Positions 33,450 through 45,328 of a DNA stretch of 64,000 nt are shown in pieces. The first letter of the stretch is position 1. Every line of letters begins with the position of its first letter. The notes below the pieces were generated by a model. It did no database searches and was not told where the DNA came from. It saw nothing but the letters and a program-made list of their open reading frames with translations. The translations under genes were made by a program, and so were the position numbers. Origin of the DNA: Apibacter mensalis (GTDB lineage Bacteria > Bacteroidota > Bacteroidia > Flavobacteriales > Weeksellaceae). The stretch covers positions 124,001 to 188,000 of the forward strand of contig NZ_LIVM01000001.1 in assembly GCF_001418685.1 (NCBI RefSeq), given 5' to 3'.

Positions 33450-33838
33450 TTAGATATGATTTAATAAATTTACTAATTCATCTATTTTTTTTCCTTTTGT
33501 AGAATTATTCAAAATTATTTCCAGATAATATGAATTTGTTACTGATGTCAACAAATGGTTTCTAATACCATCCTTGTAAACATATTCAATATATTTTAAC
33601 GTCTCATTATAAGAATATTCGCTTATGGATGTATTAGGATAATATTTGAAAAATTGCCTATTTAGAGGCTGTTTATTTATTTCCTGAGTAATTGAAAATA
33701 GTACGTTCATGTCCAACTGAACATGATTTTTATAGAGTTCTAACTTATTTAGTATGATTTGATTCTCATCATTTGAAAATATACCAAGACCAACTCCTGC
33801 AAATATTCCAAAATGTAATTGTTCATTTGTTTTTTTTA
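33450..33838 (-). pseudogene. Truncated lantibiotic dehydratase (LanB) fragment
   Basis: About 129 codons without a start codon, opening at 33838 inside the end of the CPBP gene. HFGIFAGVGLGIF resembles the LanB N-terminal TPFGLFAG motif, VQLDMNVLFSITQEI the RLDM-YL segment, and KYIEYVYKDGIRNHLLTSV with YLEIILNNS the region after it. LanB dehydrates Ser/Thr in lanthipeptide precursors and is normally about 1000 residues; only a middle piece of the N-terminal domain is left. The frame ends at a TAA with no continuation downstream. Family assignment is from memory of conserved motifs. Confidence 0.7.
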
Positions 33839-34695
33839 CTTAAAGTATAATCTATTAAAAATACTGTTGATATTGAAAAAAACATCAATAATCCAACAGG
33901 GCCAAATAAGTCAATATATTCAATCTGTATAAAAGCTAAAGTTTGTTCAACAGCATTAACTCCTCCGTGTAAAGCACCAATGACAAAAAGACTTTGTGTT
34001 CTTTTTAAGGCAAATGAAAAGTAAAATGACATAGCAATACATAATATAACCATCATAAGAATCCCCCAATAAGGGTGGTTAAGATAATTATGTCCAGATA
34101 TTATTATGGATGTGTGCCATACCCCCCAAATGATCCCGATTATTATATTTTTTTTAAAAAAAGAAAAATTTAAATTTTTCTCTAAAAAGCCTCTCCAACC
34201 AATTTCCTCCCCCAAAGCAATAAAACCATTTATAGATATTGAAGACATTAAACTTGCGGAAAACATTATAGGAACTAATATGAATAATAAATAGTCAATT
34301 TTTAATATAGATGGTATTTTTTGTAAAATTTCTGGACTTAGTTGTCGATAACTTGTAATTAGTTTTCCAAAGGGTTCAATTTCTAATACATTCCCTAATA
34401 AATACCCATAAATCATCACTAAAACTGGAAGTAATAAGTTGGTTATTAATAGATATTTAATAGTTTGTTTCCAGTTAATATTTTTAAAATTTAATTGAAA
34501 TTTTTCTGATGTTACCAAAAATTTCCTTTTTTCTACTATAAATGCTACTAAAGCAGGAGTAATCATTAATAATAATGTGAATAGTAACTGAATGGGATTA
34601 ACAGGACTTTGTAACTTCGGAATATTCCAGATAATCACCCCTATTATACCTGATATAAGATAACATATACTTATAAATGCAAGAATTTTCTTCAT
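33823..34695 (-). CDS. CPBP-family intramembrane metalloprotease
   Basis: A 290-residue membrane protein with about eight helices and all three family motifs: EEIGWRGF (about residue 160), the WHTS histidine (about 193) and HGGVN (about 241). CPBP (Abi/CAAX-like) proteases act inside membranes. Several occur in bacteriocin loci, where they give immunity or process peptides. It starts 11 nt after the MDR gene and its stop is fused to the LanB fragment. A role in immunity or leader removal for the neighbouring RiPP is inference. It appears intact. Confidence 0.85.
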   Translation of the reverse strand: MKKILAFISICYLISGIIGVIIWNIPKLQSPVNPIQLLFTLLLMITPALVAFIVEKRKFLVTSEKFQLNFKNINWKQTIKYLLITNLLLPVLVMIYGYLLGNVLEIEPFGKLITSYRQLSPEILQKIPSILKIDYLLFILVPIMFSASLMSSISINGFIALGEEIGWRGFLEKNLNFSFFKKNIIIGIIWGVWHTSIIISGHNYLNHPYWGILMMVILCIAMSFYFSFALKRTQSLFVIGALHGGVNAVEQTLAFIQIEYIDLFGPVGLLMFFSISTVFLIDYTLSKKNK

Positions 34696-34706: not shown

Positions 34707-35837
34707 TTAATTTTCATATAAATACACTACTTTTCCTAATCGTTCTTTAAAGTTATAAGTGAAGTCAAAAAAATCGGCCTCTTGTCCAATAGAAAATATC
34801 TTATCAATTAATATATTGAATTTTCCTCGTTCAAAATGATGAAGTGCCAAATCAAAATCTTCTTTCAAACCAATACAATTTCCTATTATAGATATATTCT
34901 TTATCATCGCTAATTTTATAATTTCATTAAGAGTACCATGTTCTTTAAAATTTGTTTCTGAAAAATTTGAAAATTGATTGTATAGACCGCATGTAACATA
35001 TTTGGCATCATAATTCATTAGTTTTATAACTCTCCCTAAATGAACATCAAATAATGGATCAATAACAGCATCAAAAAATCCTTTTTCACGAATAAACTTA
35101 ATTATATTTTCATCTTCTAGATAATCATTAAGATTGTGATCTATAACAAAAACTTGCTTAACCCCTTGTTCATAAAGCATATCATTATTTTTACTGGAAG
35201 AAGTCATGGCATATACTTCAACCGGAAAATTCCTAAGAGCATTTATAACAGCTAATGATGTATTGGATTTAGCTGCCGTAACAAGTACCTTAGCATTTTC
35301 CTTAACAACCTTTCTAATCATGGAATATCCTGTAAATGCAGCAATAACAAAAGATGAAGCTATTTCATCTGATAATATATTAGGTATTTTAATTAATTTA
35401 TTTTCTTTAAAATCATCTATTCGCCTTGATGCATGATTAGATGGTAACCCTGCAATATAATCGGCAGAATAGGAAGGATATGATGCATTAGCAACTACCC
35501 TATCACCAATTTTTAAATTGGTTATATTTTTTCCAATCCCAATAACTTCACCCACGAATTCAGATCCGATATACGAAAACGTATATTCTCCTTTATCTCC
35601 TAATGATTTGATTTGATTATCATAATTCAAAATCAACGTTTTATCCCTATAATTACAAGAGAATCCTCTTTTTTTAACTAAGACCCTATTATCTGGATCA
35701 CTTGAGCTTTTTAAAATTAAATTTTCTTCTTCAACCAATCCAACGTTTATTTTTTCTCCTTCTAATCTGAAAGTTCCTATATACTGGATATCTTCGGAAA
35801 CATCTATATTATTTCCAATTAATGATACGCTCTTCAT
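34707..35837 (-). CDS. MDR-family zinc/quinone-type oxidoreductase, possible LanJ-like reductase
   Basis: A 376-residue medium-chain dehydrogenase/reductase. VLVKKRGFSCNYRDK carries the NYRD motif, SEFVGEVIGIGKNITNLKIGDRV the GroES-like core, and VLVTAAKSNTSLAVIN occupies the nucleotide-binding glycine-rich position. In lanthipeptide loci MDR enzymes of the LanJ type reduce dehydroalanine/dehydrobutyrine to D-amino acids. Position directly after two precursor genes suggests that job here, but sequence alone does not prove it. A housekeeping quinone reductase is the alternative. The gene looks intact. Confidence 0.7.
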   Translation of the reverse strand: MKSVSLIGNNIDVSEDIQYIGTFRLEGEKINVGLVEEENLILKSSSDPDNRVLVKKRGFSCNYRDKTLILNYDNQIKSLGDKGEYTFSYIGSEFVGEVIGIGKNITNLKIGDRVVANASYPSYSADYIAGLPSNHASRRIDDFKENKLIKIPNILSDEIASSFVIAAFTGYSMIRKVVKENAKVLVTAAKSNTSLAVINALRNFPVEVYAMTSSSKNNDMLYEQGVKQVFVIDHNLNDYLEDENIIKFIREKGFFDAVIDPLFDVHLGRVIKLMNYDAKYVTCGLYNQFSNFSETNFKEHGTLNEIIKLAMIKNISIIGNCIGLKEDFDLALHHFERGKFNILIDKIFSIGQEADFFDFTYNFKERLGKVVYLYEN

Positions 35838-35921: not shown

Positions 35922-36077
35922 TTAAATTGTAATGGTGATTGTAATTGTAATGGTCAATGTTATTGTTAAAAATTCATTATTATTAGAGTTAGCTCCACCT
36001 TTAATCATCTCCATTTCCTTTTGATTCAAATTGGTGATTAGTTTCTTATCTAATTTTAACTCTTTGGCTTTTGAAGT
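35922..36077 (-). CDS. Putative RiPP precursor peptide 2, no standard start
   Basis: An open frame of 51 codons: leader KELKLDKKLITNLNQKEM then IKGG, and core ANSNNNEF followed by an alternating Thr/Ile tail (LTITLTITITITITI). The leader fits the Bacteroidota GG-type natural-product leader with cleavage after GG. No ATG, GTG or TTG precedes the leader after an in-frame TAA at 36080. It may rely on a rare start, on reinitiation from precursor 1 (which ends 11 nt upstream), or be decayed. The core has no Cys and only Thr/Ser as modifiable residues. Confidence 0.55.
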   Translation of the reverse strand, partial: TSKAKELKLDKKLITNLNQKEMEMIKGGANSNNNEFLTITLTITITITITI

Positions 36078-36088
36078 TTAATTTGTTT

Positions 36089-36275
36089 TTACCAAGACCA
36101 AGTCCAACTGTATGTTACAGTAACAGTAATTGATATAGTTATTGATTTATCTAAAGATTCATTTAAAGATTTATTTCCACCTTTAATGACTTCCATTTCT
36201 TTTTGATTTAAATTGGTAATTAATTTCTTGTCCAATTTCAATTCTTTTTTCTCTTTCTTGATTAGTTTTTTTCAT
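36089..36275 (-). CDS. Putative RiPP precursor peptide 1, frameshift in an A7 run
   Basis: The frame ending at 36089 reads KELKLDKKLITNLNQKEM, then VIKGG, then a 28-residue core ending TVTVTYSWTWSW. The ATG at 36275 is out of frame by one base because of seven A residues after it; six A would give MKKLIKKEKK joined to the leader. An in-frame TTG at 36241 would give a 50-residue peptide. Leader codons differ from precursor 2 at nine synonymous sites but only one amino acid, strong evidence of selection for protein. Polymerase slippage, TTG start or a real mutation are all possible. Confidence 0.6.
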
Positions 36276-36361: not shown

Positions 36362-36668
36362 TAAATATATTAAAATTATATAATTAATATTTTTTTTATT
36401 TATTTTATTATAGCTACATTATTGTTAATTTAATAAAATATTACTTCAATATGAATAATATTTATATGATTTTAGATAAAAAGAAGATATAAAATAACAA
36501 TTTAGCTTTTCGTTAAAATTTTTGAAATTTTCTTTTGATAAGTGTAGTTATATTAGCAGCACAACCCAACAATTTTGGAATATTTTCTTTCAAAGTGAAT
36601 TTATACTAACTTTTCATAATCAAATGACGTAATTTGTTAATTGTGCAGGGCAAAAACAAGGGCTGTCG

Positions 36669-36840
36669 CTATTTAATTCTCAGTTCATTTACCATTCCCT
36701 TATAATATTTATAAACTGTTTTCTTGTTTAATCCTAAAAGTTCTATTACTTTTTTGAAGCTTTTTTCACCTATTCTTCATACTCCGAATTTTTTTAATCC
36801 TTCTCTGATTATAATCTGAGATTTCAAAGATTCCCCTTAC
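36669..36840 (-). pseudogene. HTH-containing protein remnant
   Basis: The minus-strand frame reads QIIIREGLKKFGV, an in-frame TGA (36779-36777), then RIGEKSFKKVIELLGLNKK and TVYKYYKGMVNELRIK before a stop. The segment ELLGLNKKTVYKYY looks like a helix-turn-helix as in transposases or phage-type regulators. No full gene remains. It could be the trace of the island's mobility functions. Confidence 0.35.
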
Positions 36841-36983
36841 TTATGCATCAACAAAGGATTTTTTTATCCTTTGATTATTTGATTAATTGTAAATATTTAT
36901 TAAAGAAAAACCTTTTAGTTGCATTAGATAATTATTTTATCACATCAATAGTTTTTGTTAGTTCTGTCTACTATTCGCATAAC

Positions 36984-37180
36984 TTATATCGCTGATAAAG
37001 GATTTTTCATTTTATCACGATTTATAGCAAAAACTATATTTTCAATCCAGTCTCTTGGTTCTGTTTTGTTCAAAGCTATTAAAGTTCTGATTATTGCTCT
37101 TAAAATTCGATTTCTACTACCTTGTTTTATTTTGCCTTTGATAGAAAGGATTAATATTAGCCTTGATTTTGTGATTTAAA
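36984..37180 (-). pseudogene. Unidentified protein remnant near the right island end
   Basis: A minus-strand frame reads IKGKIKQGSRNRILRAII, then ALNKTEPRDWIENIVFAI and NRDKMKNPLSAI before a stop. Its amphipathic, charged composition looks coding, but there is no start and I cannot name a family. The opposite-strand frame over the same stretch looks like its shadow. Confidence 0.25.
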
Positions 37181-37330
37181 ATTACGCTAATATAAAAGCA
37201 AGAATATGCATGATATTTGCAAGATTATAAAGTATTTAATTAGATTATTTTACACCAATTTAGATTTATACATTTTATATAAATATATTTAATAATAATC
37301 AAATATAAAAGAATTATAAGGTTCAACTCT

Positions 37331-37368
37331 CTTCATCCGTACAAAAATAAAAAGCAATTAACTGAATA
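37331..37368 (+). repeat. Direct repeat, right copy (candidate att)
   Basis: 38 bp identical to 32019-32056. Upstream, 37320-37330 resembles the tRNA T-arm with mismatches; downstream, a terminator-like hairpin (37349-37360 with 37374-37385) matches the one after the tRNA. Confidence 0.75.
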
Positions 37369-37568
37369 AAGGTTAGTTGCTTTTTTATTTTATAAAAACA
37401 TAATCTACTCAATGATTAATTATAAATTCTTTTATGTGTAGTATTACAGGGGTTGTGCCTAATTCGTTGATAAAATTTATCTTAGTATCTGAAAAATTTT
37501 TGAAAGTGAATTTACCATATTATATATACAGGAATTCATCAAAAGCAAGTATAACAATCTATTTTAAT

Positions 37569-41027: not shown

Positions 41028-43784
41028 TTATAAAATTCCTGTCCATTTAATTGTACCAATTTTTGGATCTTCCCAAGTTTCTTCTTTTACAAGACGCTCT
41101 TCAATGATTATTCTTACAGGTTTATTATCTTTTAAAGGTAAATCAGTCAAAGTTTCTAAAAGCTCATTGATAATAGTAGTATCTTTCCCAGTAATTGTTG
41201 TTAGACAACCAATTGCATATTTAGGACTATATTGATGTATAGCAATCCCACCTCTAATCCCATTAATTCCATTAATTGAAGCAGATGTTCCATTACTACT
41301 AATATACATTTTGTATTTTTGTCCAGAAACACCTGGAATTAAGAAATATTCACCCGGAGGAGTTTCATTTTTAGGTCCGTATCTTTTATTTGAATGCTTC
41401 CCATATTTTTCTCCATGTGCATCTCTTGCAAGGTATGTACTATAATTAGGTTTAGGTAATTTACTATCCTTTTTTAGTTTTTTATATGATTCAAGGGAAA
41501 TATCTTTGTAAACATTTGTTTCATAAACAACCCATGATTTTTTTATTTTATTTCCAATTCCAGATATAACAACTATAGTTCCTTTACCATTATTATTACT
41601 CTTGTTTACTCCATTTAAACATTCATCTACTTTTAAAATATCAACAGCTTTTTTAAAAAATCTGATTCTTTCATTAAGTCCTTTTAAAGCTGGATTTATT
41701 TTTCTAGTAACAGATTTTACACATTCTTCTGATTTTTTTATAGCAACACTATTTATATTATTTTTACCCCAATAAGCTAATGCAGAAGTAATAGCCTCTT
41801 TAGGTTTATTGGTTAAATCCAAAGGATTTTTAACCCAATCTACATTAGCTTCATTTCCGATTTTCATATTTTTATTAAAATAATTGGATAGATCTTCATA
41901 ATTACTTTTCCATGTTATTTGCTTAAAACCTCTTCCCCTATAAGTAGTGCCATCCCCAGAACTAAAACTTCCATTTTTATTCTTATCCTTGTAGACCCAA
42001 TTAGCTATGTTAATTTGATTTGTTTTAGAAACAGCCACATATCCTTTCGAATTTTTATCCTTAATAGCTCTTCCCCACAACTTTGCCTTTTTCTTCCCTT
42101 CCTCTGTATTGAAAGCTCCAAAAGTTAATACTAGAGACTCCCAATAATAGTTAAAATTTTCTTCTGTACTATAAAATTTACTTTCTTGAGCTATCTGTGA
42201 TAAAAAATGAGCTTTTCTTATACAAGTATTAATACCTACTTTTTTTCTATATTGATTTAAATATGGAATAGCTGCCTTAATTAATGTTTCATCTTTAATT
42301 AAGCATTTGCCTTTACTGTCTACACATATATTTTTAATTTCTTCTAATGTTATATCTTTATCGCATCTTGGGCATTTACTTTCCTTTTTCTCTTCTTTTC
42401 TATCGGGTTTTCCTGTAGTTACTGCTCGGTTCCCCGGTATGGTTTCCATTTTCATGACCGTGGTATCTACTTCTATGATTCCCGTGCTTTGTATTGGGGT
42501 TTTCCCTTTTAATTTTACCCTTACAAAGATTTCATGTTTTCCATCCATAAGTTCATACCAATCTGTCCCGCCTTTTTTATACATTTCTTGAGTCAGCTGA
42601 AGAGTTACTTCTTGTTCATCTGATTGCATCTGCACAACCCCTGCGTCCAACTCTTCTCTGCTATAGGTGTCATCTTCGTAAATTGTGTATTCTACATTTT
42701 GACCTTTTAAATATTTACCTTCTATTTTCAGTTTTATATATTCTCCGTACGATACTTTTGTTTTATTTTCTGGTATGTATAAACTTACTCTTTGTATTTG
42801 TGGCTCTTCAGAAGTGGTCAGTTTTTTGTAGCTTTCTTTTAGTTTGTTCCATCCTTCTTGTATGGCTGAGGTGCCTTTGTATAAAACGGTCTCTTTTCGG
42901 AGCGTGGGTTGTGAGGGACGCGGGTTTTCTATTTCTACTCCATTTTCGAATATATATGTGGTTTCTGAATCTTCTAATTGCGCATTTACACGATATTTCT
43001 GCCTTTTCTCGCCACTCATCAATAACCTTAGGTCATCAAAATAAAATACCGTTGTTGCTGTGCCTTTCGTACATACTTTTTCTGTTTTTTGGGTTATGGG
43101 TATATATTCGGACCCTGCTGCTTTTTCTTCTTTTTTTAGTAGGGTAAATTCTATTTTCTTGCCTACACTGTTGGTTGTATTGGCTACTACATAAAGAGAC
43201 TGACCTAGTTTCAGTTTCGCATTGCGAGGCAAGGGATTGGTTTTATTGATGTCGTACAAAGATAGGCTTGTGATGGAGGGGGTTGGATTAGATACTACTT
43301 TTATGGGCAAAGCGCTGTCATTATCCAGTTCGGGGCTATATAAATAGCCAACTACTCTAATGTCTTTCCCGATGGCTTGTTCGTAAAAGGTAAATTCTCC
43401 GATCTCTTTTTGTAGTTTGAGTATATATTTGCCTTCTTTTTGGTAATAAACTGCCCATTTTACTTTTGTGGAATCTCGTTGGTTTTCAGGAGTGCCCGCA
43501 TACCATTCTGTTACCCGGTATTTTTCTTTTACTCCCGCTTGGGGCATAGTATTGCCGGTTATGGTTTTTACGCCTCTCTTTGCTTCTTTTTTTTCTTGAG
43601 GAATTCGTAGTATCTGTCCTTCTTTTAGCTTGGCTATTTCATATCTCCCATTTCCTTGGGGGATGATCTTTATTTCCGGATTTGACTGAATTATCTTATG
43701 TTCTTCTACTTTATAATGCCTCGCTATTCCCCACAGGGTTTCTCCTTGTTTTACGGTATGGTTAAGGTAAATATATTCAGGCAT
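41028..43784 (-). CDS. LysM protein with GH19-like and L,D-transpeptidase-like domains (effector candidate)
   Basis: A 918-residue modular protein. LysM domain at residues 7-58 (VKQGETLWGIARHYKV). Ig-like repeats fill about 70-440. A METIPGNRA junction lies near 446, then a CPRCDKD pair. A GH19/lysozyme-like domain spans about 480-690 (RKAHFLSQIAQES, TTYRGRGFKQITWKSNYE). The C-terminal domain has IAIHQYSPKYAIGCLTT, a His...Gly-Cys arrangement as in YkuD-like L,D-transpeptidases. No signal peptide is visible. Together with the DUF4280 gene this suggests a secretion-system effector that attacks peptidoglycan. Delivery by a type VI system is inferred. Confidence 0.8.
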   Translation of the reverse strand: MPEYIYLNHTVKQGETLWGIARHYKVEEHKIIQSNPEIKIIPQGNGRYEIAKLKEGQILRIPQEKKEAKRGVKTITGNTMPQAGVKEKYRVTEWYAGTPENQRDSTKVKWAVYYQKEGKYILKLQKEIGEFTFYEQAIGKDIRVVGYLYSPELDNDSALPIKVVSNPTPSITSLSLYDINKTNPLPRNAKLKLGQSLYVVANTTNSVGKKIEFTLLKKEEKAAGSEYIPITQKTEKVCTKGTATTVFYFDDLRLLMSGEKRQKYRVNAQLEDSETTYIFENGVEIENPRPSQPTLRKETVLYKGTSAIQEGWNKLKESYKKLTTSEEPQIQRVSLYIPENKTKVSYGEYIKLKIEGKYLKGQNVEYTIYEDDTYSREELDAGVVQMQSDEQEVTLQLTQEMYKKGGTDWYELMDGKHEIFVRVKLKGKTPIQSTGIIEVDTTVMKMETIPGNRAVTTGKPDRKEEKKESKCPRCDKDITLEEIKNICVDSKGKCLIKDETLIKAAIPYLNQYRKKVGINTCIRKAHFLSQIAQESKFYSTEENFNYYWESLVLTFGAFNTEEGKKKAKLWGRAIKDKNSKGYVAVSKTNQINIANWVYKDKNKNGSFSSGDGTTYRGRGFKQITWKSNYEDLSNYFNKNMKIGNEANVDWVKNPLDLTNKPKEAITSALAYWGKNNINSVAIKKSEECVKSVTRKINPALKGLNERIRFFKKAVDILKVDECLNGVNKSNNNGKGTIVVISGIGNKIKKSWVVYETNVYKDISLESYKKLKKDSKLPKPNYSTYLARDAHGEKYGKHSNKRYGPKNETPPGEYFLIPGVSGQKYKMYISSNGTSASINGINGIRGGIAIHQYSPKYAIGCLTTITGKDTTIINELLETLTDLPLKDNKPVRIIIEERLVKEETWEDPKIGTIKWTGIL
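42423..42450 (-). repeat. 28-bp module-junction repeat, effector copy
   Basis: Identical to 39790-39817. It marks the border between the LysM/Ig-like carrier part and the enzymatic part of the effector. Confidence 0.8.
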
Positions 43785-43879
43785 GACTTTTATATTTTTT
43801 ATTAGTTTTTAGAAATAGAAAGTAAGACCTAAGGAACTTATGCTTTACATTCTTATTTCTTATGTTGTTACTTCTTATT

Positions 43880-44347
43880 TTATTCTACCCAATCTTCTAT
43901 ATCATTAATGATTTCATTTACATCAGTTAAGGGCATCAATTGTTGCAATACCGTTTCATCAGATTTTTCAAAGTGCTGGGAATGGACATCGATAACCTGA
44001 CCATGAAAAATAATCTTGATACAGCCGCTTCCTCCTACCGGACATTCTGCTGCACTGTCTTCCAACAGAAAACAAGAATCATTTTCTACAATTTTCTGAT
44101 TGTCTTTATAATCTTTCCATGCGGTTACATTAACCATACAAGGATTCCCATTTTTCTTAGAACAGCTCCCGAAAGTGTTTTTTTAAAAGGTTTGCCCCAG
44201 TTCTTTGGTTGTAGCTGCCAGTTTATACAATCCTTCTCCGTCATTCAAATAGACAGATTTTTGGGTTTTAACTAAAAGTTTGTCGGGTGTATTTCCAAAA
44301 TTACATTGACAAATAGCTCCCTGACATACAAAATATTTTTTGCTCAT
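43880..44347 (-). pseudogene. PAAR-like DUF4280 protein interrupted by a stop codon
   Basis: ATG at 44347 opens KKYFVCQGAICQCNFGN, typical of DUF4280 PAAR-like spike proteins. After 54 codons an in-frame TAA (44185-44183) follows ...LGQTF; the same frame continues with KNTFGSCSKKNGNPC, MVNVTAWKDYKDNQ and SAAECPVGGSGCI to 43880. The cysteine pattern spans both parts, so this was one protein of about 155 residues. The change is a single base in frame, not a frameshift. An internal ATG at 44137 could make the second half alone. Such proteins cap the type VI spike and carry effectors. Confidence 0.8.
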
Positions 44348-44413
44348 AGTCTTTTATTAGGTTTCTATCTCTTTTTAGTCATTCATCTATATTTACCAAC
44401 AGGCATTTTTCTA

Positions 44414-45328
44414 TTATTCATCAAACAACCGCCCCCAAAAACCCTTTTTCTTCCTCTGGTATTTCTGCCATGCGGCTTCTTCGTCAAAATCTTTCTTTTT
44501 TTCGGGTATCGGGGTATTTTCCTTTTCTTTTTTATGGATTTTTATACATTGGATTTTTGTCCTAAGGGTATAGCCCTCTTTTTCAGTAATTACGGCTTCT
44601 ATGTTTTTTATCAGCTTGGTCTTATTATCTAAGGTATAGATATTAGCAAAAGCATCAGGATTATCTATATTTTGTACAAAAATTAAAATAGAGTTGTCTG
44701 AATCTTCTAAATTTTCAGAAGATTTAGAAACAAAGTATCCTCTTGTTTCCTCTCCTTTTAGCAAGGAGGGAAGTCTCCATATCTCTTTTTCAGGGGGATT
44801 TGTATATTTGGTATACAGGGGTATGCAGTACAAAGATAGAAACCAGTCCTTTTTCAGTTTTTCAAAAACCGATTCCGGAGATTTTAAGGCGTGATTAATA
44901 CATTCTATATAGCTATTCAACGTCTGTCCGGCATAATTTTTTTTCAGGTCTTCTTGTACCTTTTTCCATTTCTTTAAAATAGATTCATAATCAGCTAACT
45001 GAATAGCTTCTCCTTTACGATTCAGTTCTATTTGTAAGGGGGTAAAGATACTGCCTGCTAATGCAGATATTTTTTCTGATATAAGGTCAGTTTCTATCCC
45101 ATTGATAAAGGTTTTGGTCAGCTTGTGTATGCTGATTACAGCATTTCCTGAAGGAGAACGTTTTTCATATTTTACTCCGGTTGTATATTCTATTTTAGTA
45201 TTGGTATTTTCTTTTTCCATATCTATGACGACTTCATACTCATGATATAAGGAAGAAAAATCCACCTTTAATACAGGCTCTTTTGAATTTTGAGAGTAAG
45301 GGGTAAAAAACAAAGAAACACCATCCAT
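44414..45328 (-). CDS. Uncharacterised protein of the DUF4280/effector module
   Basis: A 304-residue soluble protein without signal peptide. The C-terminus is highly charged (KKKDFDEEAAWQKYQRKKKG) and ends GFWGRLFDE. I do not recognise a domain. It lies directly upstream of the DUF4280 gene, in the position often taken by adaptor or chaperone proteins that load effectors on a spike. That role is a guess from context only. Confidence 0.65.
   Translation of the reverse strand: MDGVSLFFTPYSQNSKEPVLKVDFSSLYHEYEVVIDMEKENTNTKIEYTTGVKYEKRSPSGNAVISIHKLTKTFINGIETDLISEKISALAGSIFTPLQIELNRKGEAIQLADYESILKKWKKVQEDLKKNYAGQTLNSYIECINHALKSPESVFEKLKKDWFLSLYCIPLYTKYTNPPEKEIWRLPSLLKGEETRGYFVSKSSENLEDSDNSILIFVQNIDNPDAFANIYTLDNKTKLIKNIEAVITEKEGYTLRTKIQCIKIHKKEKENTPIPEKKKDFDEEAAWQKYQRKKKGFWGRLFDE

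Follow-up and report, generated by a model that had tools for sequence, protein, structure and literature searches.

The window analysed here, a 64,000-nucleotide stretch of the Apibacter mensalis genome (NZ_LIVM01000001.1, positions 124,001 to 188,000), holds what is left of a RiPP cluster of the class I lanthipeptide type, LanC-less and now decayed. As a decayed cluster it is ordinary in itself; its value is as a pointer to an arrangement in which LanB or LxmK/HopA1 is combined with a LanJA reductase and alternating precursor cores, and no cyclase is present. In the intact relatives of this cluster, the Ser/Thr residues may well be dehydrated and reduced to D-Ala/D-Abu to give gramicidin-A-like peptides with alternating L and D residues, a reading that we hold with moderate confidence.

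Relic precursor genes and a lanB fragment

Two adjacent precursor frames were found on the minus strand. The pepA relic (36089..36271) consists of the leader KKLIKKEKKELKLDKKLITNLNQKEMEVIKGG and the core NKSLNESLDKSITISITVTVTYSWTWSW, followed by a stop, and the pepB relic (35922..36077) of the leader TSKAKELKLDKKLITNLNQKEMEMIKGG and the core ANSNNNEFLTITLTITITITITI, also followed by a stop; the leaders are also given as ...KELKLDKKLITNLNQKEMEVIKGG for pepA and KELKLDKKLITNLNQKEMEMIKGG for pepB. The earlier note had reported matched leaders, and our recount was identical, with nine synonymous differences and one replacement (Val/Met) in 24 codons. It had also called the cores unrelated, which did not hold. 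Because the two cores can be aligned at the DNA level, pepA and pepB look like diverged tandem copies, not one leader with two unrelated cores. Both cores are Cys-free and carry Ser/Thr at alternate positions. In pepB, part of the (TI)n tract is repetitive DNA (an 18-bp unit x2.3 and a 6-bp unit x7 at 72%, detected by TRF); its regularity therefore counts for less than that of pepA and may partly stem from repeat slippage.

Both peptides scored above the curated cutoff of 22 bits for NF038153, the NCBIfam model of class I lanthipeptide leaders (pepA, 23.2 bits; pepB, 23.3 bits). With TIGR04149, which describes rSAM-modified GG RiPP leaders, they reached 14.2 and 16.4 bits, below its cutoff of 25. 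Of the two leader families put forward earlier, the class I lanthipeptide type was thus recovered and the TIGR04149 type was not. Mersacidin- and lichenicidin-type leader models were rejected, all window matches being below their cutoffs. A tblastn search with pepA found no relatives on plasmids.

The evidence does not support reading the two frames as working genes. The pepA leader is not preceded by an in-frame ATG. The ATG at 36275 is shifted by a single base relative to the frame, for which reason intact pepA/pepB genes starting there were rejected; an in-frame TGA occupies 36274-36272, and the first in-frame alternative start is a TTG at 36241. In pepB, an in-frame TAA lies at 36080-36078, with no ATG, GTG or TTG between it and the leader motif. 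Downstream, lanB survives as a fragment (33462..33812, minus strand) of ~117 codons, which corresponds to residues 90-206 of the 737-aa LanB of Chryseobacterium JM1 (49.6% identity, 1.9e-31). The rest of the gene was not found, and a PF04738 search of the whole genome matched this fragment alone, leaving no second lanB. With lanB gone, this genome is unable to run the pathway. A whole-genome search for LanC (PF05147) found none. Since the window copy is broken, the exact pepA and pepB cores may have drifted.

Upstream of the relic cluster, positions 36600-37400 form a low-coding stretch with apparent transposase/helix-turn-helix remnants in several frames. Further on, positions 41028-45328 encode a LysM/chitinase-like protein of 918 residues, small neighbours and a 304-residue protein, and resemble an effector/secretion-associated island.

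An intact LanJA reductase

Two further genes on the minus strand, downstream of the precursor frames, are intact. One encodes a CPBP (Rce1-like) membrane protein (33823..34695; PF02517, 6.8e-9) with 44% identity to its counterpart in the JM1 cluster; it possibly confers self-immunity. The other (34707..35837) encodes a member of the LanJA (LtnJ) clade of medium-chain dehydrogenases/reductases; we propose that it reduces Dha/Dhb to D-Ala/D-Abu.

Using tblastn against PLSDB plasmids, we matched the window LanJA to proteins of Pseudanabaena (41%, 1e-85; adjoining LanM and a Nif11 precursor), Azospirillum (36%), Pediococcus pMD136 (35%), Staphylococcus (29-30%) and Actinomyces (29%), and to LtnJ of pMRC01 (30%, 3e-38). 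The weakest of these LanJA matches had an E value of 8e-35, save for one split Staphylococcus match at 2e-31; after a gap, the next plasmid match was an ordinary quinone oxidoreductase at 1e-9. The window protein, LtnJ and the plasmid relatives have in common motifs such as S-x-N-[YF]-R-D, G-S-[ED]-F, T-C-G and G-N-C, none of which occurs in the outgroup quinone oxidoreductase; in the alignment, the window protein groups with the copies of Chryseobacterium and of Flavobacteriaceae G514. Judged by these sequence features, the window reductase is a member of the LanJA clade, apart from other medium-chain reductases. LtnJ converts dehydroalanine to D-Ala in lacticin 3147. The solved structures closest in sequence to the window LanJA are the CurF and JamJ domains, known as C=C-reducing enoyl reductases. 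A single-sequence AlphaFold model was unusable (mean pLDDT 37.5).

The window and G514 LanJA proteins share 71% amino-acid identity, with saturated synonymous sites and a non-synonymous distance of 0.20, a substitution pattern that shows long purifying selection on the reductase. No relative was found when viral contigs were scanned with a LanJA profile. On an Actinomyces oris plasmid (L033, 6092-18554), LanJA occurs in a cluster with daptide-type methyltransferase and aminotransferase genes and a LanKC-like protein.

Intact relatives in Bacteroidota

Chryseobacterium JM1 and OV279 carry intact clusters in the order precursor-LanJA-CPBP-LanB(glutamylation)-LanB(elimination)-PCAT-HlyD. The JM1 precursor has the leader MKLQKKQLPQLKKKTITNLNQREMETIKGG and the core GIDASQELESLSVSLSLSVSYSKSKSKTLQFSGWWCL, which includes S-L-S-V-S-L-S-L-S-V-S-Y-S-K-S-K-S-K. 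Both Chryseobacterium cores end in TLQFSGWWCL, with one Cys, and contain Lys, unlike gramicidin. In G514 the order is precursor-LanJA-LanB-LanB', and in all three genomes the intact LanB is a split pair. The precursors scored 22.8, 22.8 and 28.0 bits with NF038153 (cutoff, 22). Among the cluster ORFs of these genomes, part of which were scanned with HMMs, no radical SAM protein was recognised by eye.

The earlier note had read the frames as RiPP precursors pointing to Thr dehydration or reduction and not to lanthionine rings. This idea is now well supported by the NF038153 matches, the LanJA-type reductase directly downstream and the syntenic intact clusters, in which LanB is present and LanC is not; homologues of the leader, whose absence elsewhere was to have counted against it, are present in Chryseobacterium and Flavobacterium.

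An ordinary class I lanthipeptide would instead combine Dha/Dhb with Cys through an unlinked LanC, with LanJA trimming one or two residues. The leader does match NF038153, the JM1 core contains one Cys, and LanC, although not found inside the JM1 and OV279 clusters with PF05147, is encoded elsewhere in the JM1/OV279 genomes. However, that single Cys is insufficient for the 12 Ser/Thr of JM1, the window cores and the pMD136 precursor are Cys-free, and no LanC was found with PF05147 in the genome of G514 or that of the window. We consider this alternative very unlikely, and LanC-dependent thioether formation as the main chemistry was rejected on the PF05147 results.

In a search of the genome contig collection, the window LanJA had matches in OV279 and JM1 only. 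In samples of the family, order, class and phylum, close copies were found only in JM1, OV279 and G514, so that the cluster family is rare in the sampled genomes. More distant LanJA genes occur in three Flavobacterium genomes (G1067, G1060 and G981; loci L040, L041 and L042) beside a full-length, fused LanB of ~1045 residues, with a peptidase transporter and HlyD and without an adjacent LanC. Their tandem, NF038153-type precursors have Ala/Ser/Ile/Val-rich, Cys-poor cores without alternation.

The G514 cluster adjoins mobilisation-type genes, including TraG-like and relaxase-like ones (L025, 12217-15885), which suggests a location on a mobilisable element. Beside its alternating-Ser cluster, JM1 has a second, divergent RiPP cluster (L013, 1993-7560, minus strand) with a prolyl oligopeptidase, LanB, a LanB elimination protein and a possible GG precursor, MKKQIKKEKKLSLEKLQLVKINNQTKIFGGGGTRPTRIDSCIDPENGSGNQQGGVGGVGY; like genes are present in L014.

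Alternation of Ser/Thr in the cores

We measured alternation as the longest Ser/Thr-x-Ser/Thr run and obtained p-values by sequence shuffling; as the alternation was spotted after inspection, these values are descriptive. The run was 9 in pepA (p 3.5e-5), 7 in pepB (p 2.3e-4), 10 in OV279 (p 5e-6), 10 in the pMD136 precursor (p 1.5e-5) and 10 in JM1, where 0 of 200,000 shuffles reached it. The G514 core QVTVTVDLTDTGGSLLCTLSL alternates only partially (run 2, p 0.75). Among a control set of 22 other precursors with related GG leaders, that of G514 included, the longest run was at most 3.

The JM1 and OV279 precursors differ by nine synonymous and three replacement changes (dN/dS ~0.07). All three replacements (L/M, L/V and V/I) fall at non-Ser positions, and Ser/Thr is never replaced. 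The alternating Ser residues are encoded by both TCN and AGC, which speaks against a DNA repeat as the source of the pattern and for selection on the residue.

These comparisons bear on the view that the window frames are non-functional debris in which the T/I repetition arose by simple-sequence drift. The absent start codons, the loss of most of lanB and the TRF repeats in the pepB core all agree with it. We accept that the window copy is broken, yet the alternation persists under purifying selection in the intact relatives and is thus not a product of decay, which makes such an explanation extremely unlikely.

A similar pattern on the pediocin A plasmid

On the Pediococcus plasmid pMD136, LanJA is encoded together with ABC transporters and with LxmK-like and HopA1 proteins, which point to class V-type dehydration. 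The LxmK-like protein matched NF038156 at 1.1e-51, its 176 bits falling short of the equivalog cutoff of 315, and HopA1 matched PF17914 at 5.6e-25. LanJA is preceded by a 54-codon ORF without Cys, MKDATLLSGYTSYTSPIDVQRSAVEESQLGNVGTSISLSVSYSASVSWTFSWSF, at 2229-2393 of L032, which is presumably the pediocin A precursor; its core ...TSISLSVSYSASVSWTFSWSF closely resembles the window's SITISITVTVTYSWTWSW. No relationship of leader or dehydratases was seen between pMD136 and the Bacteroidota clusters, and, as far as such sequence comparison can show, the combination of an alternating core with LanJA was reached convergently in the two. The decRiPPter authors, in the passages of their paper on this cluster, placed lanJA in it and gave the structure of pediocin A as unresolved in 2020; Ser/Thr alternation does not appear in those passages (PMC7794033).

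The same plasmid helps to weigh the possibility that the products are amphipathic beta-strand peptides with little or no modification (amyloid-like or pore-forming beta-hairpins), in which the alternation would reflect strand amphipathicity and not the placing of D residues. Alternation of polar and apolar residues is indeed the classical pattern of such strands. On the other hand, the polar positions within the runs are solely Ser/Thr, the clusters contain a dehydratase and LanJA, and the same rule is followed in Pediococcus by an unrelated cluster whose dehydratases differ. We find this explanation decidedly unlikely.

Proposed chemistry

Behind the GG leader of the precursors in the intact relatives, Ser/Thr alternate with residues that are hydrophobic, aromatic or Lys. 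In the alternating L/D reading that we favour, these Ser/Thr would become Dha/Dhb by the action of the split LanB pair and then D-Ala/D-Abu through hydrogenation by LanJA; cleavage behind Gly-Gly and export would fall to the C39-peptidase ABC transporter. The other residues would stay L. Alternate residues that can be converted to D, a D-making reductase and the lack of a cyclase would together give a peptide alternating between L and D, as in gramicidin A. Such a peptide is predicted to fold as a membrane-spanning beta-helix and might have channel or antimicrobial activity. For pepA, the predicted end is L-Tyr-D-Ala-L-Trp-D-Abu-L-Trp-D-Ala-L-Trp. For the JM1 core, full reduction would lower the calculated mass from 4050.03 to 3858.09. 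The partial alternation in G514 and the non-alternating precursors of the distant Flavobacterium LanJA clusters speak against this reading, as do the Lys residues and single Cys of the JM1/OV279 cores and the LanC encoded elsewhere in those two genomes.

The main doubt, given the Thr-rich window cores, concerns Dhb reduction by the window LanJA. LanJA enzymes reduce Dha to D-Ala and RodJA also reduces Dhb to D-Abu, whereas the characterised enzymes besides RodJA reduce Dha only, and not Dhb (PMC11519912); in Thr-rich cores, Dhb may consequently persist. Dehydration could then go without full reduction and leave an alternating Dha/Dhb strand on which the reductase acts at few sites (Dha, not Dhb). 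That the LanJA enzymes characterised before RodJA are restricted to Dha (PMC11519912) and that the window cores are mostly Thr would fit such a product, but the JM1/OV279 cores are nearly all Ser, RodJA shows that a LanJA can reduce Dhb, and alternation without stereochemical alternation has no obvious purpose. On balance, incomplete reduction seems unlikely to us.

More tentatively, and with somewhat less than even confidence, we suggest that "ribosomal gramicidins", pediocin A included, arose independently by one logic in Bacteroidota (LanB) and Bacillota (LxmK/HopA1): Ser/Thr at alternate codons, a dehydratase and LanJA, with no cyclase, so that the DNA would set the D positions. If this is true, neither an NRPS nor a radical-SAM epimerase is needed for gramicidin-like beta-helical L/D channels, which can be encoded in genes directly and detected readily by sequence, and a structure class is predicted for pediocin A. 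Among open-access papers, we found no published description of LanB or LxmK/HopA1 with LanJA, alternating cores and no cyclase; other literature may have one.

Comparison with known systems

Gramicidin A of Brevibacillus ends in L-Trp-D-Leu-L-Trp-D-Leu-L-Trp-D-Leu-L-Trp, and Y-S-W-T-W-S-W of pepA would be in the same register with an L-Trp end. The likeness thus covers the predicted alternating L/D backbone and the C-terminal aromatic residues at alternate positions, the last an L-Trp, and the lengths are similar (15 residues, against 18 in the pepA stretch from Ser to Trp). Gramicidin A is NRPS-made, with D-Leu/D-Val and blocked ends, whereas the window peptides are predicted to have D-Ala/D-Abu from encoded Ser/Thr, and no formyl or ethanolamine caps are predicted for pepA-type peptides. 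Alternating L/D residues are the signature of the gramicidin and polytheonamide beta-helices, both of which are membrane channels (PMC8183687). The polytheonamides (proteusin RiPPs) are, like the proposed products, ribosomal, alternating L/D and beta-helical (PMC8183687), but their D residues are made by the radical-SAM epimerase PoyD and their leader is nitrile-hydratase-like; for window-type clusters, dehydration and hydrogenation behind a short GG leader are proposed.

Lacticin 3147 and rodencin have homologous LanJA enzymes and the route from Ser/Thr through Dha/Dhb to D-Ala/D-Abu that is proposed here. They are class II (LanM) products that contain lanthionine rings and only a few D residues, whereas window-type clusters have class I LanB and no cyclase, with Cys-free window cores and up to ~10 sites. 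The class V-type pediocin A cluster of Pediococcus pentosaceus is similar in LanJA and in its Cys-free, alternating precursor (SWTFSWSF against YSWTWSW) and differs in its unrelated leader and dehydratases (LxmK-like/HopA1) and in lacking a GG site. ChmABC and RuiABC of Chryseobacterium and Runella are also class I lanthipeptide systems of Bacteroidota, in which dehydration is by a LanB dependent on the tRNA-Glu/GluRS of the producer; unlike the window type, they possess Cys, LanC and thioether rings and have no described reductase (PMC9993889). LanC-anchored mining (PMC7268733) would miss Bacteroidota clusters of the window type.
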